Shown here: in pieces, positions 18,901-62,574 of the stretch
Numbering within the stretch: the first letter of the stretch is position 1
Layout of the letters: each line of letters opens with the position of its first letter
Assembly: GCF_029962835.1 (NCBI RefSeq)
Contig: NC_080577.1
Location: 22,922,501-22,986,500 of the forward strand
Reading direction: 5' to 3'
Source: Magnolia sinica
Taxonomy: Eukaryota; Streptophyta; Magnoliopsida; Magnoliales; Magnoliaceae
Length of the DNA: 64,000 bases
The notes under the pieces: model-generated
Databases searched by the model: none
Told to the model about the DNA's origin: nothing
The model's input: the letters and a program-made list of their open reading frames with translations, nothing else
Position numbers and translations under genes: made by a program

Positions 18901-19068
18901 TAGAAAGTTATTTAAATAGAAAATTTCTAAAAATTAAAGAAAAACCTGAAATTAGAAAATTCTAAAATAAATCTTAAAAATCAGAAAAGTCCTAATCTTA
19001 AACTAATCCTAAAACCAGTTAACTTCAGGAAACGTAGCCGTCAATCCCCGGCAACAGTGCCAAAAACT

Positions 19069-20079: not shown

Positions 20080-20379
20080 TGTTGATGCATCATGAGTCAT
20101 GACCACACGTGTGGGCCAACCTGGTCACACGTGCGGTCCTTACATGTTTGTGTTTATGTTGGGCCTATGTCATATGTTTGGGCTATAGTCTTTAGGCCCA
20201 GAAGTCATTGTTATTTTATCTTTTAGTCAAATGTGTATAATTGTAATTTTCTTATATTAAGTAATTGCCCTAATTATAATAAAAAAGATGTGGGGACGTG
20301 TGGAGCATTCTAAGCTCTCTCATCTTCTATTCCTTTTCCTCTCGCTTTTCTTCTTCTTGTTTCTCCGTCATTTACTACA
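20080..20379 (+). mobile_element. 3' LTR of copia fossil A
   Basis: 300 bp, starting TGTTGATGCATC right after the purine tract and ending TTTACTACA. The partner in unit B is at 34484-34782. Confidence 0.85.
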
Positions 20380-24300: not shown

Positions 24301-25376
24301 ATGAAAACAATGGTTTCAGCTATTTCCTTAGGTTTAATGTAAACCTAAATGAATGAGGAAGGACATCTAACAGATATGAGGTTGCTCTCTTCTCCATAAA
24401 CTCATACATCAACCAATTATGGTGGCTTCTTCAGTGAATGATTCAGGTCATATAGCACACATTATTTATGTGTCTAGGAAATGGTCGCCACTGAGGCTCC
24501 TTGGGGTTGTTTTACAATTTTGCCGAAGTTGTTTTCCTGAAGGGGTGCACTCCAGTTGTACCATTACTACTGCAGACTTACAATGCTACCTGGCAGATGT
24601 GGTGCCCAAGTGATGCGTTCGCTCGATCCAATGTCTATCAAATGCGTCACCTTAGAAAATCCCATAGGATCCAAAACTAAGCCCAATACAAAAAATTAAG
24701 GTGGGCCACTGAAAAAAGGGAACGAGCTGGGAGGAAACACTGCCCTTTGAATTTCACAGGGACTTATCTGAGTCTCAAAACAGCCTGAATTTTGGCCTTA
24801 TCCTTCGTGTGGACTGGATGAAAGCTCTGAACAACCTTGATTATATATATAACATTTTGGATCCCCATGCTAATCAACGAGCTCTCAATATGTTCTCGGT
24901 TCTGTGGCCCATTTAATTTTTGGTCGGGTGAGTTTTGGGCTCTGGGATTTTCTGTGGTGACCAGTGTTGTCATATGCAATCGCATAAGCCCTTATACACC
25001 CTAATATGATCACACATGCCATTTTGGACCAACGGACCGCATATGCTATGGTGGCATATGTGGTTATCATACTGTTGGGGCTTTCGTGGTCGCATGGAGA
25101 AGTATACGACTGTATAAGCCATAATTATGCGGTTATGCCATCTTGTACATAGTATGCAATGGCATAAACTCCTAACGGTTAGTTTTTTTACTGTTGAGAC
25201 TTATTTTTTACTTCATTTTCTCTCACTTTTTGCCTCTTTATTTATTTATTTATTTTTTACACACCCACCCACTCACACCACATGGGCACTCCCTGGTGTG
25301 TGTTGAAATAGAGCCTGTCTACTACTGAGCCATGGAGCCGGACACTTTTTGCCTATAGATAGGCATTCCCACCCCC

Positions 25377-25430
<54 letters not shown>

Positions 25431-26422: not shown

Positions 26423-28602
26423 ACATGGACGTTGCACTGCATTTTGGTGCATCAGGCAAAGTCTCAAGAATGGTTTGGAAGTACTGTTATGCCATCGCAT
26501 TAATTCGAATAACCGTATCTTCACATAACAGAAGTTGGTGTCACCACGTTTAAACGCCTGGCAATACAAGTATAGCATCTCAGCTGACTGATCTGATATG
26601 AATCTAGATTTTGTCACCAATACTATCATGTTAACAGCTTTAAGGAATGTCTGTATCAGTGTGATGCCACTGCTTGAAATTTAAGCTTCATCTTGTCTGT
26701 GTTTATGTTTGTGCGCATTTGAAATGGTGAAACTATTGTTGCCATTTAAAACGGCCTTGCCTGTTTGGATTGCCAATTACATTAGTGATGTAGTGTAAAA
26801 GCTCCATCATTACGATTTTACCACAATTGTTTAAACACCTGATTCAGCAGTCCAATGCATATATATTAGGAGACAAATAAGGATTTTGTAATAATTACAA
26901 TTTTACAGTGGAAATCTCCTATCCAAACACATTAGTGTATTTTTCTCTATGATTTGACATTGAAGTGTGGAAAGTTATTATAATTATGATTTTACCACTA
27001 TAAACCAAATAAAGGAATTGTCGGTCAAATGCAATGTTTTCGGGAAATGGGTAAAGGAAATTGTAATCATTGCACTTTTAACAGTGCATTATATATGTAA
27101 TTTGCAATCCAAATGGGCCCACTTTGAACGATTTATCCTTTCGCATTTGGTTGCACCAAATATCATGATATTTTGCACCAAATGAGACTGATTAATCATG
27201 AAATTTCATGATTTTGGTGCAACCAAATCACCCTTAACCTTTTCAAATACCAAAAAAGAAATGAATACAATTGTTGGCAATGCACTCCAACCTAATGATC
27301 AAAAGCATTCATGGGTTATACTAGTTATCCCCATGCATTAGATAGTAATGTGACCGAATATTTATTCCATTTTGAACTGTAATGATTGCTGCCATGTTGG
27401 ATTTGCAATCGTTATTTACTGTTGAACTAACTGAATATCTCATTGGGAAAAAATTAAAAATAAAAATAAAATCCAGGCTCTGTTTGGTAGTAGCACAATA
27501 TATTCTGGTAGGAACTTGCATTGTCAATATGCAACTGTTAAACCTTGATTTTATTTGTTATGTAGTGCCGCAGAAGCTCAAATTGCCAAGGAAAACAGAT
27601 TCCAGTATTTTTTCAATTTTAATATTTTACATCTTTATATTCCGAGGACAAACGAAAAAAGAGGGAAAAGGTGTAATGGCTACACCTTGGAAGTTCGTGT
27701 GCCTACCATTTTCTACTTTGTCCACAACTATCACATTAATGGGACTTTTGAGTTGATTTTTTTTTTTCCTCACCATGATCTAGGCAGTCAATGAACTGGA
27801 CCTGGGATAAGCAGAATCAAAATTTTGAATAGGGAAAGTGCTATTCATGGCCCGCAAGTCCAGTGTATGTCATTCAACCTGTCCAGTAGGATTGCTATTG
27901 TGAAAGTCAGGCCGACCTAAGCATTGTGTGGGCCATGATGTGAATCTGGAGGTTTTTGATTTTTCCTACATTGTTCTCTATGGTGTGGCCCATGTAATGA
28001 CTGTACAGGCTTGTTTTTTTAGGCATTCCATCAACGTGATAGGGCTAACGTAATGCACGGGTCAAATGGCATATGCATAACATGGTCGGGCCCACCATAG
28101 AAAGCAATGGTTGGATTAGGTGTCCAAAACCTCCAAATTCAATTGGGAGGGCATATGATGGTTGGATTAGGTGTCCAACTTTCATGGTGGGGCACCCAAA
28201 TGGATTGGTTGGATGCCCATACACACCCTAGTGGGCCATAGGCGCAGCACTTGTAAATTCACAGCACCATTTATACCATTTTGTCTTAAATGTCTTGTTC
28301 CAGAACATAAGATCTAAACTACTCTAATATCACACATCAGGAATGTAAAACAGTCACTCCATGTTCTATGGAATTAAGAACGAACATAGGAAGCAATTTG
28401 GAAAGCTTAAACCAATGGAACTAAAAAGCTTTTATTAATGTTAGTTACATAAGAGTGAGATGCCTCTTTTCCAATAACAAGAAAACCACAGCCACCTTAT
28501 TTAGAAGAGCAACCAAGCGACAAAAGCTTTTGTACTAAAACATCAAGAAAAACAAAAACACCTATAGTTCCGAAAGGAAAAAAGAAGAAGAACAAAACAG
28601 AT

Positions 28603-28641
28603 TCAGCACTTCATTGTGAGAGTGTCTTTCGCAGCATCAGC
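28603..28641 (-). repeat. Second copy of KIN2-like A C-terminal codons after the stop
   Basis: On the - strand, the last 13 codons including the stop of KIN2-like gene A recur immediately downstream with a few differences. The period is 45 nt, so the second copy is in frame with the gene and ends in its own TGA. Confidence 0.85.
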
Positions 28642-28647
28642 ACTGAT

Positions 28648-29852
28648 TCAACGCTTCATTCCGAGAGTGTCTTTCGTAGCATCAGCAGCCCCCTGCGCTG
28701 CTTCCTTCACTTGCTGACCAGCCTATAAAATAGTAAGATAATATTTTTTTTAAAAAAAAAAAAACCCACAAAAGCATATCCATAGGACCTGTTTGGTTGT
28801 TGGGAAGTCATTCCCTGGTTTTTTCGTTTCTCATGAAAGTTGAGGCAAATTTTTTTTTTTTAAAGAAAAGTTGGGAAATGGAATTTCTAGGAAATGTAAA
28901 GCCAATCATAACCAACAACCAAACACCCATCTAGATGACGGTGTATACACTGAATATTCAGTGTATTGCTGCCATCATTGCACTAAGGGCATGTTTGGAC
29001 AGTGGTAAAAATAAAAGAACATGGATGTTTTTTCTTATGGTGAGATATTTCATTATGTTTGGATAACAAAGGAAACATTAGATTTCAAAATGCAATCAAT
29101 TTACCAAACACCATATTTAAATTCTCAGGCATAAAATATAAATTGATTTTTGTGGGAGTTTTATTTCAATCTCCATTTGTTATTGAAACAAGATTCTCAA
29201 AATAGAATCCATGTTAATGAAAAATCTTTGAAAACCATCACTGGGTAATTAATGTCGCTTTCTTTTCTTTTCTTTTTCCACTATCTAAATAAGCTCTAAT
29301 AAAATGGTAAGGTGTCACCCTGCACAAATGAGTCCAATAACCATAACTTTTTAGGAACATATGGTGATGAGTGACGGTCCACTACACACTAGAAGTGTGT
29401 GCCTACATCGGCATTGGAACCCACTCAACACATGGAAATGGTCATCAACGGTAATCAACGGCGTAAAAATGCTGAAACCTTCTTAATAAGGAAAATGTGG
29501 GTTTGTTGGAGGAACCTCTTGGCAAGATTCCTTGCAAGATTCAGCTGCACTGGATGCCTTGTCCACCATCTCATCCTTCTTCACCTGAAATAAAATGAAA
29601 GGAAAGATATCATGACCATGCACACATCATACATCCATCTCCAATATCATGGGCCTTACACCTGATCACACCACCTCCCATCCAACACCCCCAACTATCA
29701 CCATACCATGTCTTGATTACAATCTTCATGCATGATAACAGAACATCCATGCCATGGAAATCATCATCATGCATGCTTCAAGGACCACTCACCTGAGCCT
29801 GGCCTTTGGCTTCACCAGCTTTGTAGCTTAAATCCTGTGACTTATCAGACAT
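28648..29852 (-). CDS. KIN2-like stress-induced LEA protein, gene A
   Basis: Three exons on the - strand (29793-29852, 29516-29584, 28648-28722) give an open 67-residue protein. It starts MSDKSQDLSYKAGEAKGQAQ, continues with DKASSAAESCKESCQE and ends AAQGAADATKDTLGMKR. This is the layout of plant KIN2-type stress proteins (AGEAKGQ head, DKAxxAAxSxKES middle, KDxxGMxx tail): small, hydrophilic, cysteine-poor relatives of LEA proteins, made under ABA, cold or drought. All introns are phase 0. The exon 2 donor is the weak GTTCCT. A Tourist-like MITE of 310 bp lies in the second intron. Two G-boxes and a TATA box precede the ATG. Exons 1 and 2 are identical in gene B; exon 3 differs at two residues. 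Confidence 0.85.
28987..29296. mobile_element. Tourist-like MITE in KIN2-like A intron 2
   Basis: 310 bp with imperfect terminal inverted repeats (GGGCATGTTTGGACAGTGG against GAGCTTATTTAGATAGTGG) and a 3 bp TAA target duplication (28984-28986, 29297-29299), as in PIF/Harbinger MITEs. It is shared with unit B and so predates the duplication. Confidence 0.75.
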
Positions 29853-29930
29853 TTTCTTTTCTTTTCTTTTCTACAAACAAGCAATTGAACTCTTTTTTTG
29901 GATGATGAGAATGGAAAGAGCATGCAAGCC

Positions 29931-30005
29931 TATTTATATGCCCTTTGCCAACCAGAGTCATCAAGGCACACGTGTGAGGACCATTGCATTTTGTTGAGAC
30001 ACGTG
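29931..30005 (-). promoter_or_regulatory. Promoter of KIN2-like A: TATA box and two G-boxes
   Basis: Minus-strand TATA box ATATAAATA (plus 29931-29939) lies about 80 bp before the ATG. CACGTG occurs at 29969-29974 and 30000-30005 in ABRE-like contexts (ACACGTGT, GACACGTGT). Paired ABREs near the TATA box fit ABA-responsive expression. Confidence 0.7.
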
Positions 30006-30111
30006 TAAGAGTGTGACTTGAGCGACCTGATTTTTGCCATTTGAACCGGGATTATTGGATGACTGATTCAAAAAGGTTAGGAAGGGAAACGGATTGCCTA
30101 CTGACGGTGCT

Positions 30112-30540
30112 CTGTGGGCCCCATCATGATGTATGTGTTTTATCCACTCCGTCCATCCATTTTGAATAATTAGATTACGTCTTGAGAATAAAAATGAGGC
30201 AGAAAAATATATCAGGTGGATCACATCACAGGAAAACAGTTATTATTGAACGCCCACCATTAAAAACTTCCTAGGCCGCACTGTAATTTTTATTTACCAT
30301 CTGACCTGTTGACTAGATCACAAAGACATGGATGAAGGGAGAATACAGATATCAACTTCATCCAAAACTTTTGTCGCCCTCAGGAAGTTATAACGGTGAG
30401 TATTCAATCAAAACTCTTTCCTGTGGTGTGGTCCACAAGAGATTTGGATATGTCTCAATTTTGGCATATTGATCTAAAATGATCTGGAAAAATGTATGGA
30501 CGGCATGGATAAAACACATACATCATGGTAGGGCCCACAG
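30112..30540. mobile_element. GGGCCCAC foldback MITE, copy 1
   Basis: Long inverted ends: CTGTGGGCCCCATCATGATG on the left, and CTGTGGGCCCTACCATGATG read inward from the right. Pairing continues for about 50 bp through GTCCAT. It is the same element as 48348-48776 in unit B. Confidence 0.75.
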
Positions 30541-32084
30541 ATCCCGTCCAGTAGCTACTGCACCTGAATAGACAAACCGCGTCCGTCAGGAAGAATCGCG
30601 CCTGATTTATTTTATTGGACTTCAAAAAATATATTTTATTCTCAAGCTCTTATTTCTCGTCTCATCATACATGGTTTGATAATCTCGACCATTGAATTCG
30701 ATCCAAAAATCTACTTGATAAAAGAATATTAACCTTTTGGGTTGTGGCCCATGGATAGGCGATTAAGAAGAAATACATCATTGGTGTACATTCAAATGAA
30801 AAAGGCACGTCTGGTGGTTTTTGGGTCATGGTGCATCTGATGGGCGAGGCAGATCAACGGTCTAGATCACCGAACCACTTGCCCAGTTCTCAGAACTGAC
30901 TACACATGAAATACACGTGAAAGGTCAGCAAAAGAAACGAAAGGAAATGATACAACTACATGCAGAGAGAAAAATAAATGGTTTTGACAGTAGGCTTATC
31001 CCTAATTATTCGAGTGCTTTAGGCCACTCAAGGTTTTAGATTTAGTTCATTTTTACACTGATGTTCTAACGTTGGGGTGGCGCGGCTAATGTATTGAGTG
31101 AATGTTACAAAATCATTATGATAGATTATAGAACTTTTGTCGCATGAGCTATATAATACAGTACGGCTTTGTCTATATATACCCTTTAGAGGAGAAAGTG
31201 GGAACAGGCTACTTGCGTAAAAGTATTGAAATGAAAACAATGACCCATTTTTCTTGTAAATTTGAAAGTTTATGCCCTCTCTCCTAGACTTTGATTAATT
31301 GGAGTAAAATTGGTCAAAACCATTCACATAGTATAGAATGTAAGATGGATGATTGGGTTGTCCAAGTATCTAGATGCAAATATAGGAGGATTATAACTTA
31401 CTACCAGACGTAAAAATCATTCCAAAAGGTTGTTAGGGCATTGTTGTTTCAAAAGGTTTTTGGAGTAATGAGGTTTTGATTGCATGTTATCTCATAAACC
31501 GGTTGCCTTCATCAGTCTTAGGCGGTAAAATTCATTTTTTTGTCATATATCCCCACATAAACTGTTTTAAAATCTTTCTAAAGTTTTAAAATATATATGC
31601 TTAATTTGAACATCAATTTGACCGTTTTTTAAAATAAATTTGAACCTAAGGTTGTAAAGTGTTCTTTTTTGGGATACTCTTATACTCATCTGGGTTACAA
31701 GTGTTATAATTTAGTCACTCGTAGACGGTATGTGTCAGCTATTGTCACTTTTTTTTAAAAAAATTATTTTTTATTTTTAAAATTTAAGTATTCTATATTT
31801 TTCGGGAGGAAGATCATTGTAACTTGTAGAAATTTCCATCACTCTTCCTATAATGCCAGACACAACTTCATTCGCAAAGTGAGTTCCTATGCGACATTCA
31901 GATCCGCAACCCCTATAGGTCTACTCCAGACATTCCAAGAGAGGTTATGAAGTGCATTTCAATGTGTCCTCTATTAATCCTGCCACCCCATTTGAAGATT
32001 ATTCTTTTGGGTTTTCACCACTACTGTCTAATTATAGTGATTAATTTGCCCATTGCTTTCCTTAAGGGTATACGCTCTTGCACC

Positions 32085-32897
32085 CTGTGTTCAAATTATC
32101 TCCAATATTATCGAAATATCTCCGATATTATCTTTATCTCCAACTCAACAATACTGATAACACTGGTAACGATACCGATATCGCTGGAAGTATTAGAAAT
32201 TCCAGGTATTATCATTGTATCGCTAATGCGCCAATATTTTCAACTATGTAAATTCTAAGTGTCACTTGTATTGCCAATGCATCAATATCACCAATATTTT
32301 CGACTACGTAAATTCTAAGTAATGCTTGTATCATAATTATATTGACGATATTTCAATAATATCGCCAACGTATTGATATCATCAAAATTTTGTTTATTAG
32401 AAAAAATTATATTTTAATTTTTTTTTAAATGGGCACATGGTTGTATGTAGTGTTCAATTCATCATTGATAATATTGATAATATCTCGATATCGAGACCAC
32501 AATCTTTCGTTTTATTTCTAATTGTTGATGATTTTTTGATGAAATATCATGTTTTGTTGATATTTTGCAATATCGATGGATGTTTGGATGAAAGGTTGGA
32601 TGGTTAAATAGGTCGGATGGGATGGTTGGACTGATTTCTTACAACAACACATGCTTTTAAGGCTCCATTAAATGGAAACTTATTATGTATGCATTCTTTT
32701 TGCAATTTTTTTTTAAAAAATTTCTAAATATGCAAATACGTACATTTTAACATCTCTTGAAGTTTTGCTGAAAATTCTACTGTTTTTCTCATGTTTTTCC
32801 GCATTTTCGGTTATCAACGATATTATTAGTGTTATCGATATTGTTTCTGTTTCCCTGGCCAACGAAACTTGTAGCGATACCGATACTTCGAACACTG
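32085..32897. mobile_element. Non-autonomous hAT element in copia fossil B
   Basis: 813 bp flanked by a perfect 8 bp duplication CTTGCACC (32077-32084 and 32898-32905). The empty site is at 13430-13437 in unit A. Ends are CTGTGTTCAAATTATC and, inverted, CAGTGTTCGAAGTATC (13 of 16 match). The interior is AT-rich with many CGATAT/TATCG motifs and no transposase. Confidence 0.85.
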
Positions 32898-34483
32898 CTT
32901 GCACCTAACATCCTTTTTCTAATTTTGTTTCCCTTAATGGCCTATCTCATTGTCTTTGGCAATTTGCTTTCTTTATCCTCTGTGTTTGTTTCTCACTCTT
33001 TCTAGGAGGCTCTTAACAGTGATGGGTAGAAGTGAACCGTAGAAGAAGAGATGGTCGGCGAAATCAAATGTGGACTTTAGCTGAGATAGCTATAGGAAAA
33101 CCTGCCGTAGGGTGCAGATGGGTATATACCATCAAGTACAATCCCAATGGCTCAGTGGATTGTTTAAAGGCTTGACTGGTTGTGATGGGATACACTTAGA
33201 CTTTAGGGGTTGACTACTCTTAGACATTTTCTCCTATGGTTAAGCTTTATTTTGTACGTGTGGTGATCTCTATTACTGCAAATTTAGATCGACCTCTGTA
33301 CCAATTTGATGTGAAGAACGCTTTTCTTTACATGGATATGCTTGAAGAGGTGTATATGGAGCAACTGCCCGGCTTTGTTGCTTAGGGGGAGTCAGATAAA
33401 GAAACCAATTTATGGTTTAAAATAATCTACTCATGATTGGTTTGACAAATTTAGTAAGGTAGTGCTTCAATTTGGAATGAAACATAGTTAGGTAGGTCAT
33501 TTGGTTTTTGTTCGATAGAGCTAGACAAGTATCATTGTGTTAGTTGTAGTTGTGGATGATATCACTGTTACTAGCAGTGATAGTACTTGTATTTCTGAGT
33601 TAAAGTTCTTGCAATAATACTTCTGCACAAAAGATTTAGGTGACCTTTGATACTTTCTAGGTATTTAGGTAGCAACGTTGGTGGGAATTAAGTCATCGTG
33701 GTGGAAGTATGTGATGGATTTGCTAGAAGAGATAGGTTTGTTGGGGGCTTAGCTAGTTGGAACTCACATCAATGCTAATTTAAAATTGAGCATAGATGAA
33801 GATGAATTATTTGATGATCTAGGGAGATCGATTATTAGGTAGTTGGCAAATTGATTTATTTAACGATTTCACGACCAGACATCTCTTATCTAGTTAGTGT
33901 AGTTAGTCAGTTTATGCAGACCATGCTTTGCATGCTTAGATATTTAAAGGGAACTCTTGGTCATTGAAATTCTTTATAAGAGAAATGGACATCTTAGAGT
34001 AGAAGGGTTTTCTGATGCATTTTGGGTTGGCTCTCTTTTTCAGAGGAGATCAACCACATGTTATTTTATGTCTGTAAGAGGAAATCTAGTTACATGGAAA
34101 AGAAAGAAGCAAAATGTCATCGCTTGGTCTAGCGCAGAAGCAGAGTATAGGGCTATGACCTATGCAACATGTGAACTTACTTGACCAAAGACATTAATGT
34201 GTGAGCACGGGTTTGTGGTGGATGCTCCTATTAGATTGTGTTGTGCTAATCATGCATCATCTCACACCGCCAACAATCCAGCCTATTACAAAAAGAACCA
34301 AGAAATTGAAGTTAACTGTCACTTCATTAAGGAGAAGGCTGCTAACAAGGAAATATGCACACCGCTTGTAAGTCCCAAGATCAAGTGGCCAACATGTTTA
34401 CGAAGGCTTTAAGTCGGGCTCATTTGGACATATTATTTGTCAAGTCGGGCATTCATGACATTATGCTTCAGCTTGAGGGGGAG

Positions 34484-34782
34484 TGTTGATGCATCATGAG
34501 TCATGACCACACGTGTGGGCCAACCTGGTCACACGTGCGGTCCTTACATGTTTGTGTTTATGTTGGGCCTATGTCATATGTTTGGGCTATAGTCTTTAGG
34601 CCCAGAAGTCATTGTTATTTTATCTTTTAGTCAAATGTGTATAATTGTAATTTTCTTATATTAAGTAATTGCACTAATTATAATAAAAAAGAAGTGGGGA
34701 TTGTGGAGCATTCTAAGCTCTCTCATCTTCTATTCCTTTTACTCTCACTTTTCTTCTTCTTGTTTCTCAATCATTTACTACA
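34484..34782 (+). mobile_element. 3' LTR of copia fossil B
   Basis: 299 bp, differing from the unit A LTR by about seven substitutions and one single-base gap by eye. Confidence 0.85.
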
Positions 34783-36211
34783 GTTTGTAAATTTTAATAG
34801 AGACCAAAAGATGTTCACCGATTGGTATATACATCCAAAAGTTACTCTAGTTGCACTTGTGGGTCCATAGCCCAACCACTTCAGCACATAATCTATTTGG
34901 ATTTTTGGGCCCCAGAGTCCAATCTGATGTCTTTCTGGGCTGAAAAAGACAGTTGTATAATGTGGGGTCCACTTTGGACCTCCTGTGGAACACACCTTTG
35001 ATGTGCTGCCTGGATGCGTCTGCAACTGTCCTAGTCGGAGACGTTCTATGCATTTGATTCTTGCTTCATTTCCCACATTTGTTCATCAGTATAAGAGTAG
35101 AAGATATAAACTGCAACCACAATTCACACATTTCTGATCCATATGAGATGATTGTCATTTTTAAAAGATGGATTCCTGTGCACAGGCAGCATGATGGCTC
35201 AATAAGAAAAAATCTAAAATGCCTTCTCACTTTTTTAGCATTTTTGAGTATCTCCATCTTTCCAACCATGTATTTATTATATTATATGTTCTCCATTACA
35301 CTTTTTTACCCCTTGGGGATCTGATCGTCATCAATCTAACAAACTTGCCAGTTTGGATGGGGATGCATATCACACCATTTTGGTGCCCTTTTTGGCTTTT
35401 ACAGTATCTATCCAAAGTCTATGTTCCCGGTTCTGTGTCTCTGTTTCATGGAGAATGCGGTCCTGTATTTGGATAAGAAGGACCAAACTAAAAAGAACTA
35501 TTCATGCAAGTGAAAATCTACTAGTCACCACTCAATTACTTGACATCAGCTCATTGATGTGCATGTGATAACCATCTATGAATTTGCTTATTTTTTTTTT
35601 ATATTTTATTTTCTGGACATTGGTGATTGAGAATCTCGAGAAAATATACATGTTATTTGCTATAGTTCTCACACATTCTTTGCATATCAATGTTAAATGA
35701 AAGTTATCTGTACTTCCATTATACATTTGTCTTTTAACGTAAACAAGTTGTATCCTCTCTCTACCCCCCTCTCTCTCTATCAGGACTCATCTGGTAACAG
35801 TTTACTGCTTGAAGATGTGCTCTCCGATGCAGAGCTTGATGCTCAATTAGACTCCTGGAGAGAAAAGCTTGTTGTGGTAAGCACCCTGTAGCTTATCTTG
35901 CATTGCATCCTCTGCAATTGGTCTTTTTTCGAAGGTGGTTGTCTTTGAGATGCTTGCTGGCTCCCTCAGGTTGGAAGGGAATCCGCTGAGCTGCACAGAG
36001 AGGTTCATGCATTGCAAAAGCAGTCTATCTTAAGCAGCAGTTGTGCCAGGTCTGTCGCTGAGGCACTAGAACCATTCAAGCAGAACTCCATGCATGCCAT
36101 GCTCAAGGGTATCTCTATTAGCCATTAATTATTCTTTTATTGACACAATATCTGTTTGTCCAAGACCTGCTCATTAGTCTATTGCTGTTAATTATAATTA
36201 CTTGATTAAAA

Positions 36212-39200
36212 TGTAACGCCCTGAAATTCGGGGGTCGAGCATAACTCAGCTCTCGAGTTCCAAAACATCACTTATGCAACATATTTGATGATGGATGTAT
36301 GTTGTCTGTATTAGTGCATAAAACATGGAATAGATTAAGCCAAAGTGCAAATATAATTCAGGGATAAGTGAAGAAAGCAAGCGGAAGACTTAAAGAAATA
36401 TATGTGTATATGTGCGAATCCCTGAAATACATACACATACCAGGTCGTAATGTAAGTGTTGCTATCAAAATTATAAGTATCAAATTACATCATTTAGTTT
36501 CCAAAAGAAATCCCAGCATCCCGCACATCAGAATAAGGCTCACTAGAACCCGTCTGAAAACTGCATAAAAGAGAAAGCAGCCTCATCATCATCCATCTCC
36601 CGATCTACCTCAGAAGTCACATCAACATCTGCAAAATCAGCATCTAAGACAGTCTGGTGGGTGTTTAACACCGCCCCAGAACGTGGGAGTGAGTGATCAA
36701 CTCAGTAGAACAATAAAGCAAATGTTAACATGTTATTAGTTCAATCAAGCAGTAATGATAAGACAACAATTAAACAGGTCCTAAGTACTCTTGTTAATGC
36801 AATGATGTATGTAGAATGATGCGTGCCCTCACGCGTACACCCTCAGCGTCTTCATCTTACGTTACGCATGACATCGTCTCAAAGTGCGCCACGTCTACAA
36901 AGCACATGCAAATGCGGTGCATGAACATGATTACTGAGTTGTTATTAGTCTTTTTCATACAACAGGATTGGGAAGCTAAGGTACCTTCCTCATATCACCA
37001 TCCAAACAGTGATCCATTCTAGGGTCGTCAGTTCTAGACATCTCATACGATCATATGGTTTGAGGTCATTGCAAATGGCTCGTCACCAATCAAAGCACGC
37101 CTATCATACCTTTATTACCACATTAAGGCTCGTCACCTCAATGCGGTATCCAGGCATGCTCGAGGTCATTACAAAGGGCTCGTCACCAATCAATGTAGGT
37201 CGACAGCACGAATATAGTGTCCCATACCACCATAATCGGCTCACGAGTTTGGTTGCTCACTGGTCACTACGGGGAGGCTCGTCACCCCAGCGTAGGCCGA
37301 CAGCTCGACCACGGTGTCCCATACCACCATGTCCGGTTCATGAGTCTTAGCGGATCAAGGTACCATGGTTAATAGGATTTCATCGGTAAGTTGGTACCCT
37401 AGATTCAAGCAGTAGCGTCCATACATGGTGAACATACATCGGATAATCGGGTTACTTGACGAACTCGACTAGCACGAGCGCACGTTGAGTTGAACGACAT
37501 ACAGTGCGCAAACACTCCGCGTGGCCAAACCACTGCCGACAACCCTAATACGACTCGGGTTTGTCTAATCACGTCCTACGTGGCGAAAGCAATCTCAGCC
37601 ACGAACTTAAGGCCGACTACCGATTTCCTGGACTATTCATAGTCCCAAACACATTACACTACAACAGATATACGTATTGAATGTAGAACAGTAATGGAAC
37701 AACGACTTCAACCATGAAGCATATGAGTACTTGAAGAATATCAACTTAACATGAATGTAAGCATAAGTAATGCTTGAACTTAAACAACAAGGAATGTAAC
37801 TAGCATGAAGGAAATCATACACACTAGTGGGAGAGTTGAGAATCGCTTCTCAACGCCCATACTAGGTTGATATATCACACGTTAGATCATTCAGACATTT
37901 CTACAAACACTTAGAATACATAAAGCAACATACATGACGTATGTTGAAATACACACATTTGGACAATTCCTTTTGTCAAGGAGTTGCCGCACATATGATT
38001 AGCATAAGTACACGACAAATACTCATGGCAATCACATGTTCATATTTTATACGCATACGGTACTTTATACATACACATAGAATACACAAATCTCAATATA
38101 ACACATGCATATCAGGAACGCAGAATAAACATAACATTTGGCATGTGAAAATTCATCCATAGCAAGAATAAACCATTCATTGGCATTGAAAGCCTTGAAA
38201 ACCATAACTTATACGATTAAAGTCCGCACCTTAATCCAGAAAAGAAACACCGAACTGATTTCAGACGATTTGTCTTCGTCAACGGCGACAGAATAACCTA
38301 AGGCAAGAATAAAAATGAGCTACAACAACACAAAGACTATTCTAAGCTCTAACACAGATTAGTGTTAGGTTAACTTACCCAAAGTTGAACTCAGAATCGC
38401 CGGAATAACGATTCAAAAGTGAAGGTTCAAGGATGAAGAAGAACAGGAAAGAATCTAAGATGATTCACCAACTTCTCTCTCACTTTCTCTCTCTTTTCCA
38501 CTCTCATTCTTAGCTAGGGTTAGAAAATTCGTATGGAAAAGAGAGCTAGGGTTTTAAGGTTTATAAATAGGCCTAACATTGATGAAAATAACCCCAGGGC
38601 CAAGGTATACTTAGGGTATAACCAAAATCGGCCTCTTACGATCCAACGAAGCACTTCCGGTGGGCCTATTACTACGAAAGGTTGGACTTAAGCTCACTGA
38701 CCATGGATCTAGGTCAAGCTGAGTTTTCGTACCGACCGGATCTTCAGATCAGCCGTGACGGACCACACTCAATTCAACGGTCACAGAATCTCGATCAAGT
38801 CCACAAGCACAAGGACATGCCTGGGCCACCCTCCCTGATCAGAGGGTGAAATTTGGTCAGAATCCAACGGTCAGATTGCTTAAAATCGTCGCGCAAGCGA
38901 CACGACTCAGATTTCATAAAATCTTATTGAATTTCCAACCGTTCTCACACTCTTCACTCCAGACTTAATTAAATCGACCCAGAACATCATCTGGACTTGA
39001 TTTTCGAGGTGATGACCAAGTCCAACATGGTGACCGCAACAGCCTAAGATCATCGCTATCGGACTTTCGACGCGCGGTCCAGGTCCGATCCAGATCTTCC
39101 AAAAATTTTCAAGAACAACTGGATTTAGCGATGGATCCCAGATTTTAGAGTAACATAGCGCTAACCAATCTACAAGTTTTGAGTCATGTAGATACAATTT

Positions 39201-39320
39201 AAAGTGATTGATGCAAATTTCACAAGCAATCGAGTATAGCGCTAATTACCCCAAAAACAACTACTAAAGAAAATAGAGGTAGTACTCGGGTCTTGGCACA
39301 AAAATTCCCGGGTCATTACA
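36212..39320 (-). mobile_element. Solo LTR (gypsy-type) in MIS12-like B intron
   Basis: 3,109 bp beginning TGTAACGCCC and ending GGTCATTACA, flanked by TAAAA (36207-36211, 39321-39325). The empty site in unit A is near 21806. The length, TG..CA ends, 5 bp duplication and lack of coding sequence suggest a solo LTR of a long-LTR gypsy family (Tekay/Del-like ends). A TATA-like TATTTATAAAC near 38563 and a leader-like stretch favour minus orientation. Younger than the duplication. Confidence 0.7.
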
Positions 39321-42300
39321 TAAAATTTCCATGATCTTTTGACAACATTTTCAGATGTTTCTGAAACAATGGAAAGTGCCTCGTGTTCATGATAACCGTT
39401 CATGTAAGATGTATTAGTAATTTAATATAGGTATCGTATGAGGCTTACTAGGCCCACAGGTGTAGAGCCTGTCTATCCACATGTATCAATATGGCACTCG
39501 TGTGCAAGATCTTAGTTTTCCTTCAGGTGGGGCACATTGATTAGATCTTCTGTTTCAAAGTTCAGGCCGTTTCGCTCCTCAGGTGGGCCATCCAACTTTT
39601 TGCACAGTGGCTAAGGAGTGGAATGGTCTAATTTTGAGGCAGATCTAATCAGTGTGGCCCACAGGGTGGAAAGTTCGGATCTCCTTCACCTGTGCAATAT
39701 CGACACTTATGCTTGCATGTTGGAAGGGAAGGACTCGAAAGACATGTGGCCTTGCAAATCACAGTGTTGCATTATGTATGTTGTAAATCCTGGAAATTGG
39801 GAATGATTTTGCTTTTCAATGGAACGAATCTACATTCACTTGGGGTGCCTCAAGAAATGAGGAGTAGTGGGGCTTCCGTTTCCCCTCTTCTTTCCTCTAC
39901 TGCAAATCAGGAAACTTCTTACACACAACCTGCAGCCATGAATGAAACATGTCTTTTCTCAAATGTTGGTATGCAGTGGTGGGTCAGGTAGTAATTAAAT
40001 CCCATGAATTCTGGTCTGCATCTCGTTGCCATGAAGCTGAAATTATTTATTTATTAATCCTTCTAGTTACCTGAAGGAGATGTGGGATAGTTTCTGATGC
40101 TATAACCATATCTATATTCCCCCCAAATGCCACTTTCTGGAGCTGAGTAATAAAAACTACCATTTGGTCAGATCCCACTGCATGGGATAACTTGGGCTTT
40201 AAATTCTTTTCCATGGACGGCATTCTGAAATTCTTATGACATCCATTCCTAATTGTCCTTGGGTATGTATGACTAATTATTTCCACGAGAAAATTAACCT
40301 TCATACTCGAGTTCTTGGAGCCATGAGAAATAGAAGCAGGAATCTTAGATAGCCCGCACTGAAATACCTCTCATAGTATGTTTAATGTACCATCCCTTGT
40401 GCTAACCCACCTCAGTACTTTACTTGGGCACTTTCCTAGGTTAGGTCTCAACAACCACCTCCATAAGAGAATATTTTGCCATGGAATTCTCTTATTATGT
40501 AAGAGGTTTCACATGCTCGGGCCAAAATATGCACAGTACCATTCATGTTTTGTGCAAGTTGTGCCCATATTTCAATGATCTAAATGTTGATATTATGGCC
40601 CCCACAGTTGATGGCTGATGCACCAAAAATCTCCCAGATGGAAAGATCCTAATCCTTTAATAGGTGGCTGAAAATGGACAGTTAAGAAAAAGAATGCCGC
40701 AATGCATATTGAATGCAGAAAAGTTGAAATTTTCAGTGGGCAAGACCTTCAAAGCTGGGGGATTTTTGCTTACGGGTTATTCATGGCAAGGTCCATAGTA
40801 TCAATGGTTTGGATCACTGAATCATGTGCCGTACTTGTACAAATTTTGAACCTGGACAGTACTGTGCAAACTTCTGTCCTGAGCATGGTAGAATACCTCA
40901 ATATGTATTCAAGTATGAATTGGAGAAATTAGGCTGAATGTGTTATATGAACAAAGGTGCGCATTTCAAAGATGAGGAGATGTTGCGATGGATGTTTGGA
41001 AATACTAGGAAGGAGAGATTAAGAAGGATGTCCTTCAAAGCAATATGAGACTAATTCCAATTGGAGACAATTATATAGTGGATTGAGGTGCTTTTGCCAT
41101 GTGGTTATAAAATCGGTGATGGCCTTGGCAAGGAAGGGAACTTTGATTAAGGCTGAAGGGCCTGAAAGGAGGATGATATGAAGGCCTGAAAGGACTTTGG
41201 GAGGAGATTTAAGGGATATGGCTTTTTTCACTTATCAAAGATAGGCCTTAGAAAGGAATTTTGGTGAAACAATATCCATCAAATAGCTGGGATGAGGTGA
41301 TTATGACGACGGCGATGTATTCAAGGGGCTTTACTTTGTTAATGTAATTCCCAGGGCACGACACGCAAAAGACCACCTTAAGACAAAGAGGCCCTTTGAA
41401 ACTATATCGACTCTGTCTATAAGTTTCACGAGGAACTGCATGACCCTTGGCCTAAGGGTACCCATAGTATTATACTCTTGTTTTTGTTCTTACAACTATG
41501 GCCAATGATTCAGTGATCAAGATCATTAGTCACTTGGGAACCACCATGGGTGGACCATGCCCCAAGAATCTCGCAGATTGGAAAATTCTAGCAACCAAGC
41601 TTGAGCCTTCTTGTAGGATGTTGCTGCATTTCTCTTTTTAACCATCTATTTGCAGGTCATGAATTTAAAGGTTAGAGATTTTCGAAGCATGGTCCATAAG
41701 CAATGGGACCCAATAGACAATCAGTCTTGACCACTGAATCATGGACCAGTTGTACCAATTGAAAACCCTCTATACCGTGCACGTCCTTGGGTTGAGAATC
41801 CCCGCAATTTCTGTAAATTCATTACCACACTTTTGGGAAGCAAATGCATGCAATGAAAACAATGGTTTCAGACCTAAATGAATGAGGAAGGACATCTAAC
41901 AGATATGAGGTTGCTCTCTTCTCCATAAACTCATACATCAACCAATTATGGTGGCTTCTTCAGTGAATGATTCAGGTCATATACCACACATGATTACGTG
42001 TGTAGGAAATGGTCGCCACTGAGGCTCCTTGGGGTTGGTTGTTTTAAATTTTTGCCGAAGTTGTTTTCCTGAAGGGGTGCACTCCAGTTGTACCGTTACT
42101 ACTGCAGACTTACAATGGTACCAGGCAGATGTGGTGCCCAAGTGATGCGTTTGCTCGATCCAATGTCTATCAAATGCGTCACCTCAGAAAACCCCATAGG
42201 ATCCAAAACTAAGCCCAATACAAAAAATTAAGGTGGGCCACTGAAAAAAGGGAACGAGCTGGGAGGAAACACTGCCCTTTGAATTTCATAGGGACTTATC

Positions 42301-42647
42301 TGAGTCTCAAAACAGCCTGAATTTTGGCCTTATCCTTCGTGTGGACTGGATGAAAGCTCTGAACAACCTTGATTATATATATAACATTTTGGATCCCCAT
42401 GCTAATCAACGAGCTCTCAATATGTTCTCGGTTCTGTGGCCCATATGAATTTTTGGTCGGGTGAGTTTTGGGCTCTGGGATTTTCTTTGGTGACCAATGT
42501 TGTCATATGCAATCGCATAAGCCCTTATACACCCTTATATGATCATATATGCCATTTTGGACCAATGGACCGCATATGCTATGGTGGCATATGTGGTTAT
42601 CATACTATTGGGGCTTTTGTGGTCGCATAGAGAAGTATACGACCGTA

Positions 42648-43475
42648 CACTACCAAAAAAATGACTTTGGCTGTTTCAGATTTTATTTGTTCAGAAATGA
42701 GAAGATCAGTGTATGCTCCCGAGTATTGTCTTTCTTTTTTATATCATCTTGTTGTTGTCTTTCTCTATAATTTAGTTCTTTAGTTTCAAGGCATAGCTTT
42801 TTCATATGACTACCTTTTTTTATGATGAAATTTATTTTCAGCCATGTGCAGTAAGCTTTTAGATCAAAGCGAAGCTAAGAATAGGGTGTTAGTTGACGGC
42901 AAATTGATAACCATTAGAGGCACATCCATGTAGTTCTCGCTTGCGATTGTTGAGAAGCGATTTGGCTGCGAGAAGGCATTGGATCTTGCTATCAATAAAA
43001 ACTTTAAATAGACATATAACTATTATGTTAGTATTGTACAATTTTGTGAATGGATTAAAATGAATGATTGTATTTGATTAAATGATTTAGCTGTGAAGTT
43101 TGATTAAAATGAATGATTGTATTTGAATGAATGAATGAATGATCTGTTAGGACATGTACTACAATGGTAAGAGATGCCATTAGAATAGTTTCTTTAAATT
43201 AGGCATTAGCTACGGCTATTAACCGTAGCTGTTTCTAATTTTAGCCTTTTGCTGGTGTGCTAGTTCTACTTTTAGCTACAAATATAATCCGTAGCTATAT
43301 AGATTTAAACTACGGAAACTATGTTATGGATTTAATTCTACCTATTATTACTACGAATTAAATCCGTAGCCATTGTTAACCTGCAATAGCTATGGTCATG
43401 CTACGGATTTTAACCGTAGCTATAGTAATTTAGCTACGTATTTTATCCGTAGCTTCTCCCCATTTTGTGGTCGTG
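42648..43475. mobile_element. CACTA (EnSpm) non-autonomous element with captured gene piece
   Basis: 828 bp starting CACTACCAAAAAAATG, with the inverted end CACGACCACAAAATGG and a 3 bp GTA duplication (42645-42647, 43476-43478). Unit A has the unfilled site (GACTGTATAAGCC, near 25109). The right half carries many subterminal motifs CTACGGAT / CCGTAGCTA in both orientations, typical of CACTA elements. The left half contains a DJ-1-like exon. No transposase. Confidence 0.8.
42842..43011 (+). pseudogene. Captured last exon of a DJ-1/PfpI-family gene
   Basis: Inside the CACTA element an intron-like tract ending TTATTTTCAG (acceptor at 42841) is followed by a coding stretch. It reads MCSKLLDQSEAKNRVLVDGK, then LITIRGTSM, a TAG at 42931-42933, FSLAIVEKRFGCEKALDLA and a final TAG at 43009-43011. 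This resembles the C-terminus of plant DJ-1 homologues, where VDGxxITSRGPGTSMEFALAIVEK and KALxLAK are typical. Pro-Gly of RGPGTS is missing and the TAG stands where Glu is usual, so it cannot make an intact domain. Keeping an intron border points to capture of genomic DNA rather than a cDNA. Confidence 0.75.
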
Positions 43476-43734
43476 GTATAAGCCATAATTATGCGGTTAT
43501 GCCATCGTGTACATAGTATGCAATGGCATAACCTCCTAACTGTTAGTTTTTTTTACTGTTGAGACTTATTTTTTACTTCATTTTCTCTCACTGTTTGCCT
43601 CTCTTTTGTTTTTGCACACCCACCCCCTCACACCACATGGGCACTCCTTGGTTTGTGTTGAAATAGAGTCTGTCGACTACTGAGCCATGGAGCCAGACAC
43701 TTTTTGCCTATAGATAGGCATTCCCACCCCCTAT

Positions 43735-43738
<4 letters not shown>

Positions 43739-43777
<39 letters not shown>
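43739..43777. repeat. (CT)n microsatellite, unit B
   Basis: Counterpart of 25381-25428, shorter by several repeats. Confidence 0.9.
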
Positions 43778-43778
<1 letters not shown>

Positions 43779-46700
43779 TACTCTCATTCTCTCTTAAAAT
43801 GACATCAATAAAATTTATACATTGTTTTTTCACATTTTTTAATACATGCATTCATTTGAGTAGTTAGTTGTCTTATTATAGTCTAATAAAGCTATATAAA
43901 AAAAATCTTATACTGGTAGTCTTTTTAGATAATTTTTCACATGTGTGTGTATTAATTTTTCCTTGAATTTTCTGTGATGTGCCATCACATAAGTGCACAA
44001 CCCCCTTGAATCATCACTAGTTCACTCATGCCATTTGACAACATTGGAAGTGACGCATCCTATGGACAGTTTGGATTCCATGAAGACATCACTAGGTCCC
44101 ACATCTGCCTGGTAGATGGTACCTGTACCACCGGAGTGCACCCCTTTCCTAAAAATGTTGAATTATCCAGCGCATGCTATCACATGCACCAATCATTTGC
44201 TAAGTACTCATCATCACGCGGGGTCCATGACCCACTCCAGTCGTGTGCATGGCCGCATGCCTAATCATTGCCCAATTGTAAATAGAGAGTGGTGGCGAGT
44301 CATATAGTGCATTGTTAGGTGTACAGGTTGTAGTCTGGATAGCTTTTTCCTTTCATTTTTGAGAAAAGATTTTGCATGTAAATTCCTAGCATACCGATGC
44401 ACATTCAACTATCCACGATATTTATTTATTTATTTATTTTTATTTTTTTGACAAGAATCTAATCAACTCAAGAAAGTTCACTTGACACAGAAATGCTAAG
44501 AACTGCATCTGAACTACGTGCAAAAATGGAGATAATGAAGGCCAAGAGAAGGGAAGAGATGGAGCGCATTAGAATTGAGAGGATTTACAATCCTGACAAG
44601 AGTCAATCTATGATGTATAGCAATGGTAATTTCTACATCAAAGCCTACTCTTTACCATATTGATTTTGCAAAAAATTGAGTGGGGAGATCTATAATTCTC
44701 TACCTTGTCCTGTAGGCCTCTCTGCTAGTTTGGAGGATCTTCATGAATTTGCAGATAATATGACAAAAAAGATGTGAACATGGACGTTGCCCTGCATTTT
44801 GGTAAATCAGGCAAAGTCTCAAGGATGGTTTGGAATTACTGTTATGCCATCGCATTAATTCGAATAACCATATCTTCACATAACAGATGTTGGTGTCACC
44901 ACGTTTAAACGCCTGGCAATACAAGTATAGCATCTCAGCAGACTGATATGATATGAATCTAGATTTTGTCACCAATACTAGCATGTTAACAGCTTTAAGG
45001 AATGTATGTATCAGTGTGATGCCACTGCTCGAAATTTAAGCTTCATCTTGTCTGTGTTTATGTGTGTGCGCATTTGAAATGGTGAAACTATTGTTGCCAT
45101 TTAAAACAGCCTTGCCTGTTTGGATTGCCATTTACCACAATTGTTTAAACACCTGATTCGGCAGTCAAATGCATATATATTAGGAGACAAATAAGGAATT
45201 TGTAGTAATTACAATTTTACAGTGGAAATCTCCTATCCAAAAACATTAGTGTATTTTTCTCTATGATTTGACATTGAAGTGTGGAAAATTATCATAATTA
45301 TGATTTTACCACTATAAACCAAACAAAGGAATTGTCGGTCAAATGCAATGTTTTCGGGAGATGGGTAAAGGAAATTGTAATCATTGCACTTTTAACAGTA
45401 CATTATATATGTAATTTGCAATCCAAACAGGCCCACTTTGAACGATTTATCCTTTCGCATTTGGTTGCACCAAATATCATGATATTTTGCACCAAATGAG
45501 ACTGATTAATCATGAAATTTCATGATTTTGGTGCAACCAAATCACCCTTAACCTTTTCAAAAACCAAAAAAGAAATGAATACAATTGTTGGCAATACACT
45601 CCAACCTAATGATCAAAAGCATTCATAGGTTATACTAGTTATCCCCATGCATTAGATAGTAATGTGACTGAATATTTATTCCATTTTGAACTGTAATGAT
45701 TGCTGCCATGTTGGATTTCCAATCGTCATTTACTGTTGAACTAACTGAATATCTCATTGGGAAAAAAATAAATATCCAGGCTCTGTTTGTTAGTAGGACA
45801 ATGTATTATGGTAGGAACTTGCAGTGTCAATATGCAACTGTTAAACCTTGATTTTATTTGTTATGTAGTGCGGAAGAAGCTCAAATTGCCAAGGAAAACA
45901 GATTCCAGTATTTATTCAGTTTTAATATTTTACATCTTTATTTTCCAAGGAAAAACGAAAAAAGAGGGAAAAGGTGTAATGGTTACACCTTGGAAGTTCA
46001 TGTGCATGCCTACCATTTTCTATTTTGTCCACTACTATCACATTAATGGGACTTTTGAGTAGATTTTTTTTTTTTTTCCTCACCATGATGTAGGCAGTCA
46101 ATGAACTAGAGCTGGGATAAGCAGAAACAAAATTTTGAATAGGGAAAGTGCTATGCATCGCCTGCAAGTCCAGTATATGGCATTCAACCTGTCCAGTAGG
46201 ATTGCTATTGTGAAAGTCAGGCCGACCTAAGCATCGTGTGGGCCATCATTTGAATCTCGAGGTTTTTGAATTTTCCTACATTGTTCTCTATGGTGTGGCC
46301 CATGTAATGATTGTACAGGCTTGATTTTTTAGCCATTCCAACAACATGATAGGGCTAACGTAATGCACAGGTCAAATGGCATATGCATAACATGATAGGG
46401 CCCACCATAGAAAGCAATGGTTGGATTAGGTGTCCAAAACCTCCAAATTCAATTGGAAGGGCATGTGATTGTTGGATTAGGTGTCCAACTTTCATGGTGG
46501 GGCACCCAAATTGATTGGTTGGATGCCCATACACACCCTAGTGGGCCATAGGTGCAGCACTGGTAAATTCATAGCACCATTTACTACCATTTTGTCTTAA
46601 ATGTCTTGTTCCAGAACATAAGATCTAAACTACTCTAATATCACACATCAGGAATGTAAAATGGTCACTCCATGTGCTATGGAATTAAGAACGAACATAG

Positions 46701-46892
46701 GAAGCAATTTGGAAAGCTTAAACCAATGGAACTAAAAAGCTTTTCTTAATGTTAGTTACATAAGAGTGAGAGGCCTCTTTTCCAATGACAAGAAAACCAC
46801 AGCCACCTTATTTAGAAGAGCAACCAAGCCACAAAAGCTTTTGTACTAAAACAAAAAAGAAGAAGCAGAAGAAGAAGAAAAAGAAGACAGAT

Positions 46893-46931
46893 TCAGCACT
46901 TCATTGTGAGAGTGTCTTTCACAGCATCAGC
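46893..46931 (-). repeat. Second copy of KIN2-like B C-terminal codons after the stop
   Basis: Same in-frame 45 nt period arrangement as in gene A (28603-28641). The frame between the two stops is open in both units. Confidence 0.85.
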
Positions 46932-46937
46932 ACCGAT

Positions 46938-48088
46938 TCAACGCTTCATTCCGAGAGTGTCTTTCGCAGCATCAGCAGCCCCCTGCGCTGCCTGCTTCAC
47001 TTGCTGACCAGCCTGTAAAATAGTAAGATTCAGGAAGTCATTCCCTGGTTTTTTCCCTTCTAGTGAAAGTTGAGGCAAATTTTATTTATTTATTGATTTT
47101 TTAAAGAAAAGTTGGCAAATGGAATTTCTGGGAAATGTAAAACCAATCATAATCAGCAACCAAACACCCATCTAGATGACAGTGTATACACTGAATATTC
47201 AGTGTATGGCCAGATCATTGCACTAAGGGCATGTTTGGACAGTGGTAAAAATAAAAGAACATGGATGTTTTTTCTCATGGTGAGACATTTCATTATGTTT
47301 GGATAACAAAGGAAACTTTCAAAATGCAATCAATTTACCAAACACCATATTTAAATTCTCATGCATAAAATATAAATTGATTTTTGTGGGAGCTTTATTT
47401 CAATCTCCATTTGTTATCGAAAAAAGACTCTCAAAATAAAATCCATGTTAATGAAAAATCTTTGAAAATCATCACTGGGTAATTACTGTGGCTTTTTTTT
47501 TCTTTTCTTTTTCCACTATCTAAACAGGCTCTAATAAAATGGTCAGGTGTCACCCTGCACAAATGAGTCCAATAACCATAACTTTTTAGGAACATATGGT
47601 GATGAGTGACGGTCCACTACACACTAGAAGTGTGTGCCTTCATCGGCATTGGAACCCACTCAACACATGGACATGGTCATCAACGGTCATCAACGGCGTA
47701 AAAATGCTGAAACCTTCTTAATAAGGAAAATGTGGGTTTGTTGGAGGAACCTCTTGGCAAGATTCCTTGCAAGATTCAGCTGCACTGGATGCCTTGTCCA
47801 CCATCTCATCCTTCTTCACCTGAAATAAAATGAAAGGAAAGATATCATGACCATACACACATCATACATCCATCTCCAATATCATGGACCATACACCTGA
47901 TCACACCACCTCCCATCCAACACCCCCCACTATCACCATACCATGTCTTGATTACAATCATCATGCATGAATAACTGAACATCCATGCCATGGAAATCAT
48001 CATCATGCATGCTCCAAGGACCACTCACCTGAGCCTGGCCTTTGGCTTCACCAGCTTTGTAGCTTAAATCCTGTGACTTATCAGACAT
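46938..48088 (-). CDS. KIN2-like stress-induced LEA protein, gene B
   Basis: The tandem duplicate of gene A: exons 48029-48088, 47751-47819 and 46938-47012, open for 67 residues. Exons 1 and 2 are identical to those of A; exon 3 reads VKQAAQGAADAAKDTLGMKR, two residues different. It keeps the weak GTTCCT donor at exon 2, the intronic Tourist-like MITE, the TATA box and both G-boxes. Everything needed for expression seems present, so both copies are probably functional. It lies divergently from KIN2-like gene C, with about 4.6 kb between start codons. Confidence 0.85.
47227..47531. mobile_element. Tourist-like MITE in KIN2-like B intron 2
   Basis: Duplicate of 28987-29296, with the TAA target duplication kept (47224-47226, 47532-47534). 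Confidence 0.75.
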
Positions 48089-48166
48089 TTTCTTTTCTTT
48101 TCTTTTCTACAAACAAGCAATTGAACTCTTTTTTTGGATGATGAGAATGGAAAGAGCATGCAAGCC

Positions 48167-48240
48167 TATTTATATGCCCTTTGCCAACCAGAGTCATCAA
48201 GGCACACGTGTGAGGACATTGCATTGCATTGAGACACGTG
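48167..48240 (-). promoter_or_regulatory. Promoter of KIN2-like B: TATA box and two G-boxes
   Basis: Minus-strand ATATAAATA (plus 48167-48175), with CACGTG at 48205-48210 and 48235-48240; same spacing pattern as gene A. Confidence 0.7.
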
Positions 48241-48347
48241 TAAGAGTGTAACTTGAGCGGCATGATCTTTGCCATTTGAACCGGGATTATAGGATGACTG
48301 ATTCAAAAAGGTTGTTAGGAAGGGACACCGATTGCTTACTGACGGCT

Positions 48348-48776
48348 CTGTGGGCCCCATCATGATGTATGTGTTTTATCCACGCCATCCATCCATTTTG
48401 AATAACTAGTCTACATGATGAGAATAAAAATGAGGCAGATAAAAATATCAGGTGGACCACCTCACAGGAAAACACTGATGATTGAACACTCACCATTAAA
48501 AACTCGCTAGCGAGCACTGTAATGTTTATTTGCCATCTAACCTGTTCATTAGGTCACACAGACATGGATGAAGGGAGAATACAAATATCAACTTCATTCA
48601 AAACTTTTGTCGCCCTCAGGAAGTTTATAATGGTGAGCTGTCAATGACAACTGTTTCCTGTGGTGTGGTCCACATGAGATTTGGATATGCCTCAATTTTG
48701 GTCCATGGACCTAAAATGATCTGAAAAATGGATGTACGGCATGGATAAAACACATATATCATGGTAGGGCCCACAG
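48348..48776. mobile_element. GGGCCCAC foldback MITE, copy 2
   Basis: Unit B duplicate of 30112-30540, with the same long inverted ends CTGTGGGCCC. Confidence 0.75.
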
Positions 48777-49521
48777 ATCCCGTCCAGTAGCTACTGGCCC
48801 CCTGAGTAGACAAACCGCATCTGTTAAGAAGAATCCCACCTGTTTTATTTTATTGGACTTCAAAAAATATATTTTATTCTCACTCTTATTTCTCGTCTCA
48901 TCATACATGGTTCGATAATCTCGACCATTGAATATGATCCGAAAATCTACTTGATAAAAGAATATTAACCTTTTGGGTTGTGGCTAATGTATAGGCGATT
49001 AAGAAGAAATACATCATTAGTCTATGAAAAAGGCGCAAGATTGGACGTCGACTGGTTTTTGGGATTTGGTGCATCTGATGGACAGATCAACGGTCTGGAT
49101 CACCGAATCACTTGCCCACGTCTCAGAACTGACCAATGCAAAGTAGAGGGTGGGATAGCAAGTAATGTGCCTTATAATTCCTCTTGCAAAGGGAAAAAAA
49201 AGGTTTGATCTCTCCATGACATATGTAATATTATTTAAATTAGAAATACATGTGGAAGCGCAATAGAAGAAACGGAGGGAAATAGTACAACCACGTGTGG
49301 AGAGAAAATGATGAATAGTGCTTAAAATGGTTTTGACCGTAGACTTATTCTTAATTATTTGAGTGCTTTAGGCCACTCGAGGTTTTAAATTTACTTCATT
49401 TTTACACATTGATGTTCTAACGTTGTCCAAGTATCTAGATGCAACTAGGAGGATTATAACTTATTACTGGGTGTGGCACGTGCAACCCACATGGAGAGAA
49501 TGGCCATACGCAAGTGTACGC

Positions 49522-62350: not shown

Positions 62351-62574
62351 CTGAAAGATTCAGGCACTACAATCAGAAAACAAAAGCTTTTAAAGCCATT
62401 CTGCTTCTAGTTTGCATGAGTAGGAGCTCCTTAGACCGACTTTATATCGTTATGCATTTTAAGTTGCATTCAGATGCACAAGCAAATTGAATCATGAACG
62501 TTCAGTAGAAGCATTCATAACGAGCAACCAGCCCTCAGATTGCAAGTATGTTCCTTTCAAATCCAACTTGGAAG

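Follow-up and report, generated by a model that had tools for sequence, protein, structure and literature searches.

A CACTA-like transposon carrying a terminal exon fragment of the DJ-1/YajL family in one of two tandem duplicates

A non-autonomous CACTA-like transposon of 828 bp was found at positions 42648-43475 of the 64-kb stretch of DNA that was analysed (the window). The element starts with CACTACCAAAAAAATGAC and finishes with CCCCATTTTGTGGTCGTG, is flanked on each side by GTA, and carries a damaged terminal exon of a stress-protection gene of the DJ-1/YajL family, while the corresponding site in a tandem duplicate of the same segment is empty. The composite is very probably a non-autonomous CACTA element that captured a genomic piece of a DJ-1/YajL-type gene, moved in trans, and inserted at a GTA. 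As an instance of gene-fragment capture, a known process, the locus is tidy but unexceptional, and it has little general value, since Pack-CACTA elements and captured exons that retain parts of introns are already on record from plants. The filled and the empty site within one duplicated segment provide an internal control that orders the events, and the locus can matter to genome annotation, where the fragment could be taken for a DJ-1 gene or exon. The features of the locus are listed in Table 1.

Table 1. Positions of the element, its parts, its cargo and the empty paralogous site within the window.
Feature	Position	Strand	Basis
CACTA-like element (Pack-CACTA type)	42648..43475	+	Ends, target site duplication (TSD), absence from paralogous duplicate
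TSD GTA, left copy	42645..42647		Single GTA at empty paralogous site
TSD GTA, right copy	43476..43478		Directly 3' of element
5' terminal inverted repeat, CACTACCAAAAAAATG	42648..42663	+	12/16 bases agree with 3' end
3' terminal inverted repeat, read inwards, CACGACCACAAAATGG	43460..43475	-	Compared with 5' end
Intron-like stretch, 48% T, ending TTATTTTCAG (acceptor-like)	42690..42841	+	Composition, position before exon
Terminal exon fragment (DJ-1/YajL family) through its final TAG	42842..43011	+	Profile, PDB and YajL alignments
AT-rich stretch, possibly captured downstream DNA	43012..43195	+	Origin inferred
Direct and inverted GCTACGG/CCGTAGC array, subterminal	43206..43466		7/8 exact copies in the window
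Empty site, single GTA, unit A	25112..25114		Paralogous duplicate without element

The ends of the element are imperfect inverted repeats which, when both are read inwards, are identical at 11 of the 13 and 12 of the 16 terminal bases. As in other members of the CACTA (En/Spm) superfamily, the 5' end is CACTA (CACTACCAAA at 42648) and the TSD is 3 bp long, a GTA at each flank. The 3' end, read inwards, is CACGA where CACTA (TAGTG) is expected; with one copy in view, this one-base departure may be a late point change or a family trait. The subterminal repeats characteristic of the superfamily are present on the right side alone, where a GCTACGG/CCGTAGC array occupies the right-hand 270 bp of the element. 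Counted over both strands, the window has eight exact copies of this motif, seven of them in the element and all seven at 43209-43453. When up to one mismatch was allowed, 10 of the 72 copies in the window were in the element, over the same interval, and none was present in the element left of 43209. The inverted ends, the GTA flanks and the array bear out the proposal in the initial annotation that this is a short CACTA element.

No Pfam transposase match was obtained for 10 scanned ORFs of the element, and these 10, out of 17 ORFs of at least 22 aa, also gave no Pfam match to a second gene fragment at E values up to 1. Together with a match of the cargo to the NCBIfam profile TIGR01383, this gives the combination that marks a Pack-TYPE (Pack-CACTA) element, namely DNA of a cellular gene without a transposase. 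No Rfam match was found across 42000-44500, and self-comparison of the 64-kb window revealed no second copy of the element. The window was also scanned for other CACTA elements, which had to have exact CACTA/TAGTG ends separated by 100-12,000 bp, agreement of at least 10 of 14 end bases, and a TSD of 3 bp; the lone weak candidate, at 44015-44309 (10/14 end bases), was taken as chance. Separately, an 11-mer, TTTTGTGGTCG, is common to the left flank of the element (42615-42625) and its 3' end (43463-43473), where that end deviates from CACTA, and these two copies are the only ones on the plus strand of the window. At least 11 shared bases were seen in 15 of 20,000 random draws of stretch pairs of the same size, in a comparison that was chosen post hoc. 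Chance, or gene conversion between the flank and the end, may account for the sharing.

BLASTN comparison of the window with itself showed that the element lies within a tandem segmental duplication of approximately 18 kb, in which unit A spans 12769-31074 and unit B, which holds the element, spans 31409-49425. The two units match in six pieces longer than 600 bp, with 89.8-95.5% identity, and in a final piece of 183 columns with 78.7% identity. Over 8903 aligned positions (21797-30900 of unit A and the counterpart in unit B), 405 positions differ, or 4.5% with 280 gap columns left out. The element is the exact break in this match: 21797-25114 corresponds to 39321-42647, and 25112-28739 corresponds to 43476-47029. 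Once the element and one GTA are removed, the units align without a gap over the 80 columns shown across the junction. Since the match breaks at the element and unit A has a single GTA, the element is an insertion. The GTA duplication claimed at the outset is thus seen at both flanks and against a single GTA at the empty paralogous site. The initial annotation had also named the presence of the same sequence at the empty site in relatives as grounds for refutation; when this test was run in another form, on the paralogous duplicate, the element withstood it, unit A being without the element and holding one GTA. A resident pseudogene with no link to a transposon was considered and rejected, as the paralogue match stops exactly at the CACTA ends.

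The order of events is, most simply, duplication followed by insertion. CACTA elements can excise, and the site in unit A might therefore be empty because a copy once present there was lost, but CACTA excision usually leaves footprints and the unit A site is a single GTA with no base gained or lost. Loss from unit A with no footprint left is less likely than insertion after duplication, and we regard it as highly improbable.

Two further insertions, later than the duplication, distinguish the units. One, 3.1 kb long at 36213-39320 and confined to unit B, is bounded by TG...CA with TAAAA as its 5-bp repeat; it looks like a solo LTR or another LTR-derived insertion. The other, at approximately 14526-19575 and confined to unit A, is likewise bounded by TG...CA, here with a repeat of AGAAA; both repeats were identified by eye. 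Each of the two looks like an LTR-retrotransposon insertion, and both show a single target copy in the unit where they are missing, which indicates that comparison of the two units works. The insertion in unit A contains an inverted 622-bp repeat (14531-15152 and 15319-15939, 97.4% identity) and minus-strand ORFs that, labelled by eye, we take to be gag-like.

The cargo of the element is a reading of 57 codons at 42841-43011, AMCSKLLDQSEAKNRVLVDGKLITIRGTSM*FSLAIVEKRFGCEKALDLAINKNFK*, made up of 55 residues and two stops, one internal and one terminal; its first residue uses the G of the acceptor AG at 42841. The initial annotation had made its interpretation depend on DJ-1 similarity in a profile search, and such similarity was found: the reading matches TIGR01383 with E = 1.4e-4 over profile positions 127-177 of 180, which is the C-terminus. 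The score of 21.6 bits is far below the full-length cut-off, which is 131.25, as must be the case for a short fragment. Local alignment with E. coli YajL gave a score of 50, a value reached by none of 5000 shuffles (mean 23.6, sd 4.0, maximum 45), whereas the scores against E. coli HchA and YhbO were shuffle-like, being reached by 1975 and 4643 of 5000 shuffles respectively. The cargo therefore belongs to the DJ-1/YajL branch, in the C-terminal register of the family. Among the 2120 ORFs of at least 20 aa in the window, the best score against YajL was 42, compared with 50 for the fragment when X was placed at its stops. Weak matches to chains of DJ-1/Parkinson disease protein 7 were also found in the PDB.

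Could this similarity be due to chance? The best PDB match had an E value of only 0.033, the cargo matched no Pfam family with an E value of 1 or less, a tblastn search of 72,556 plasmid records was negative up to E = 10, and viral contigs yielded no confirmed relative. Chance was nevertheless rejected, and we give it almost no credence, because the TIGR01383 match and the shuffles speak against it despite these negative searches, and because the reading opens at an AG and closes with a stop shortly after the C-terminus of the family.

The cargo is a gene fragment and not a member gene of the DJ-1/YajL family, with no complete open coding sequence in its 55 residues. The motif that reads RGPGTS in DJ-1 and QGPGTA in YajL reads RGTS in the fragment, the PG having been lost in frame so that GPGT is cut to GT, and an in-frame TAG (TSM*FS) stands at the site of an acidic residue in both DJ-1 and YajL. 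The alignments thus agree with earlier statements that key residues had been lost and a stop gained. The cargo is a dead pseudogene fragment, with nothing pointing to a function. Most plant DJ-1 proteins contain a pair of DJ-1 domains, according to the available part of PMC4702089. Among the literature matches listed, no title refers to a captured DJ-1 fragment, and the string CACTACCAAAAAA had no match in the literature text searched.

An intact-looking CAG acceptor, with its AG at 42840-42841, stands directly before the DJ-1 exon and behind a T-rich stretch. With the TIGR01383 match and the YajL shuffles, this upholds the earlier description of a DJ-1-family terminal exon behind an AG. As the acceptor and the intron-like stretch have been kept, a genomic rather than a reverse-transcribed source is suggested. 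Beyond the exon, the AT-rich stretch contains a 33-nt direct repeat (43053-43085 and 43102-43134).

Gene-fragment capture as an event, and its place before insertion, are inferred. The donor would be a plant DJ-1/YajL-type gene elsewhere, and the piece acquired would run from the end of the last intron through the last coding exon and probably into the DNA beyond, all of it genomic and not derived from mRNA. In the element, the captured piece would have replaced the 5' subterminal and internal regions. The Pack-CACTA capture model, as given in the available part of PMC13317346, holds that neighbouring elements lose their facing ends in an aberrant excision, which results in a hybrid; such a hybrid would enclose the DNA lying between two neighbouring elements. 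The composite would then have been mobilised in trans, with a transposase supplied from another locus, and would have inserted at a GTA within one of the tandem duplicates, which have diverged; the remaining subterminal repeats could serve a trans-acting DNA-binding protein. A single copy, the CACGA at the 3' end, the lack of a motif on the left side and the weakness of the DJ-1 matches count against this explanation, in which we still place high confidence.

Another order is conceivable: an ordinary deletion derivative of the CACTA element would have landed here before it carried any DJ-1 DNA, and its 5' subterminal region would have been replaced at this site by a patch of DJ-1 sequence, for example filler DNA from break repair. 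Such an order would fit the single copy known and the DJ-1 side, which left of 43209 lacks the subterminal motif, sequences of this kind being thought to aid transposition. There is, however, no direct evidence for later patching, and unequal subterminal arrays also occur in the soybean element Tgmt*, as described in the available part of PMC2613891. We consider patching after insertion unlikely, though it keeps a small share of our confidence, and prefer capture followed by insertion of the composite.

An intronic position of the element within another gene, as stated in the initial annotation, did not find support. From the ORFs in the window, of which 434 have at least 50 aa, 19 were picked by hand (9 in unit A and 10 at 40-54 kb, one of these ten being the counterpart of a unit A ORF), and no recognisable gene emerged from them, as none had a match above the cut-off of any family. 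Their sub-threshold matches were to LEA_4 (0.03), Tape_meas_lam_C (0.033), NUP160_helical (0.039), Fe_hyd_SSU (0.054 and 0.059), YtxH (0.083) and DUF1281_C (0.13). A PDB search with three unit A ORFs joined returned nothing at E up to 10. Changes between the units were counted per codon position and, on inspection by eye, did not clearly point to coding constraint; the ORF at 24713-24913 has a single change between the duplicates. The only clear cellular gene recognised is represented by a WD40-repeat ORF on the minus strand at 61643-62359, approximately 18 kb from the element. By eye, this gene is WDR26-like and spans 61043-62359 on the minus strand, with a smaller exon. At the opposite end of the window, within 1-4577, inverted copies at 1-1939 and 2623-4577 share 91% identity; by eye, each copy looks like a hAT-type transposase gene. 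The retrotransposons and repeats of the window suggest that it is plant nuclear DNA.

These surroundings bear on whether the cargo has been exonised, with the acceptor at 42840-42841 serving in the splicing of transcripts from a gene around the element. The acceptor itself looks intact, and there is a precedent in Tgm-Express1, fragments of which are spliced as cassette exons according to the available part of PMC1947982. Yet no surrounding gene came to light among the 19 hand-picked ORFs or in the PDB search of three, and the DJ-1 frame meets a stop after 29 codons, so that exonisation seems most improbable. Hardly more credible is the wider proposition that the DJ-1 exon is expressed at all, whether exonised in a transcript of the duplicated unit or as a small RNA acting on a parental DJ-1 gene. 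If the cargo were expressed, the two duplicates would form a natural plus/minus pair for measuring its effect.

Gene-fragment capture of the Pack-CACTA type has been reported from Arabidopsis, maize and soybean. The present element shares with the Pack-CACTA and Pack-TYPE elements, as described in the available parts of PMC8903248 and PMC13317346, a non-autonomous structure with terminal inverted repeats (TIRs), a TSD, gene-derived DNA and the lack of a transposase, but it is known from one copy and its donor gene is a putative one. Its TSD of 3 bp also differs from the 5 nt given for rice and maize CACTA elements in the available part of PMC8903248. As in Tgm-Express1 of soybean, the cargo of this CACTA element is host gene DNA that includes parts of exons and introns; Tgm-Express1, however, is 5.7 kb long, has five gene fragments, lies in intron 2 of F3H1 and was shown to be spliced into transcripts (PMC1947982, available part), whereas the element described here has 828 bp, one fragment and no recognised host gene. 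Tgmt* of soybean resembles it in its 3-bp TSD, in its 13-bp TIRs, which are imperfect and have three mismatches, and in its subterminal repeats, which are more numerous at the right end (24 over 732 bp) than at the left (4 over 159 bp; PMC2613891, available part). As that array is also unequal, the lopsided array found here is not strange in kind, although the left side here lacks any subterminal motif. By the same partial source (PMC2613891), Tgmt* is also 20.5 kb long and putatively autonomous, and a 10-bp part of its subterminal motif differs from GCTACGG. The CACTA elements of Chenopodium are complete or nearly so, and the fragments named in the available part of PMC8978399 are of Neprosin and AP2 rather than DJ-1, but like the element described here they carry captured host gene fragments in their 5' part.
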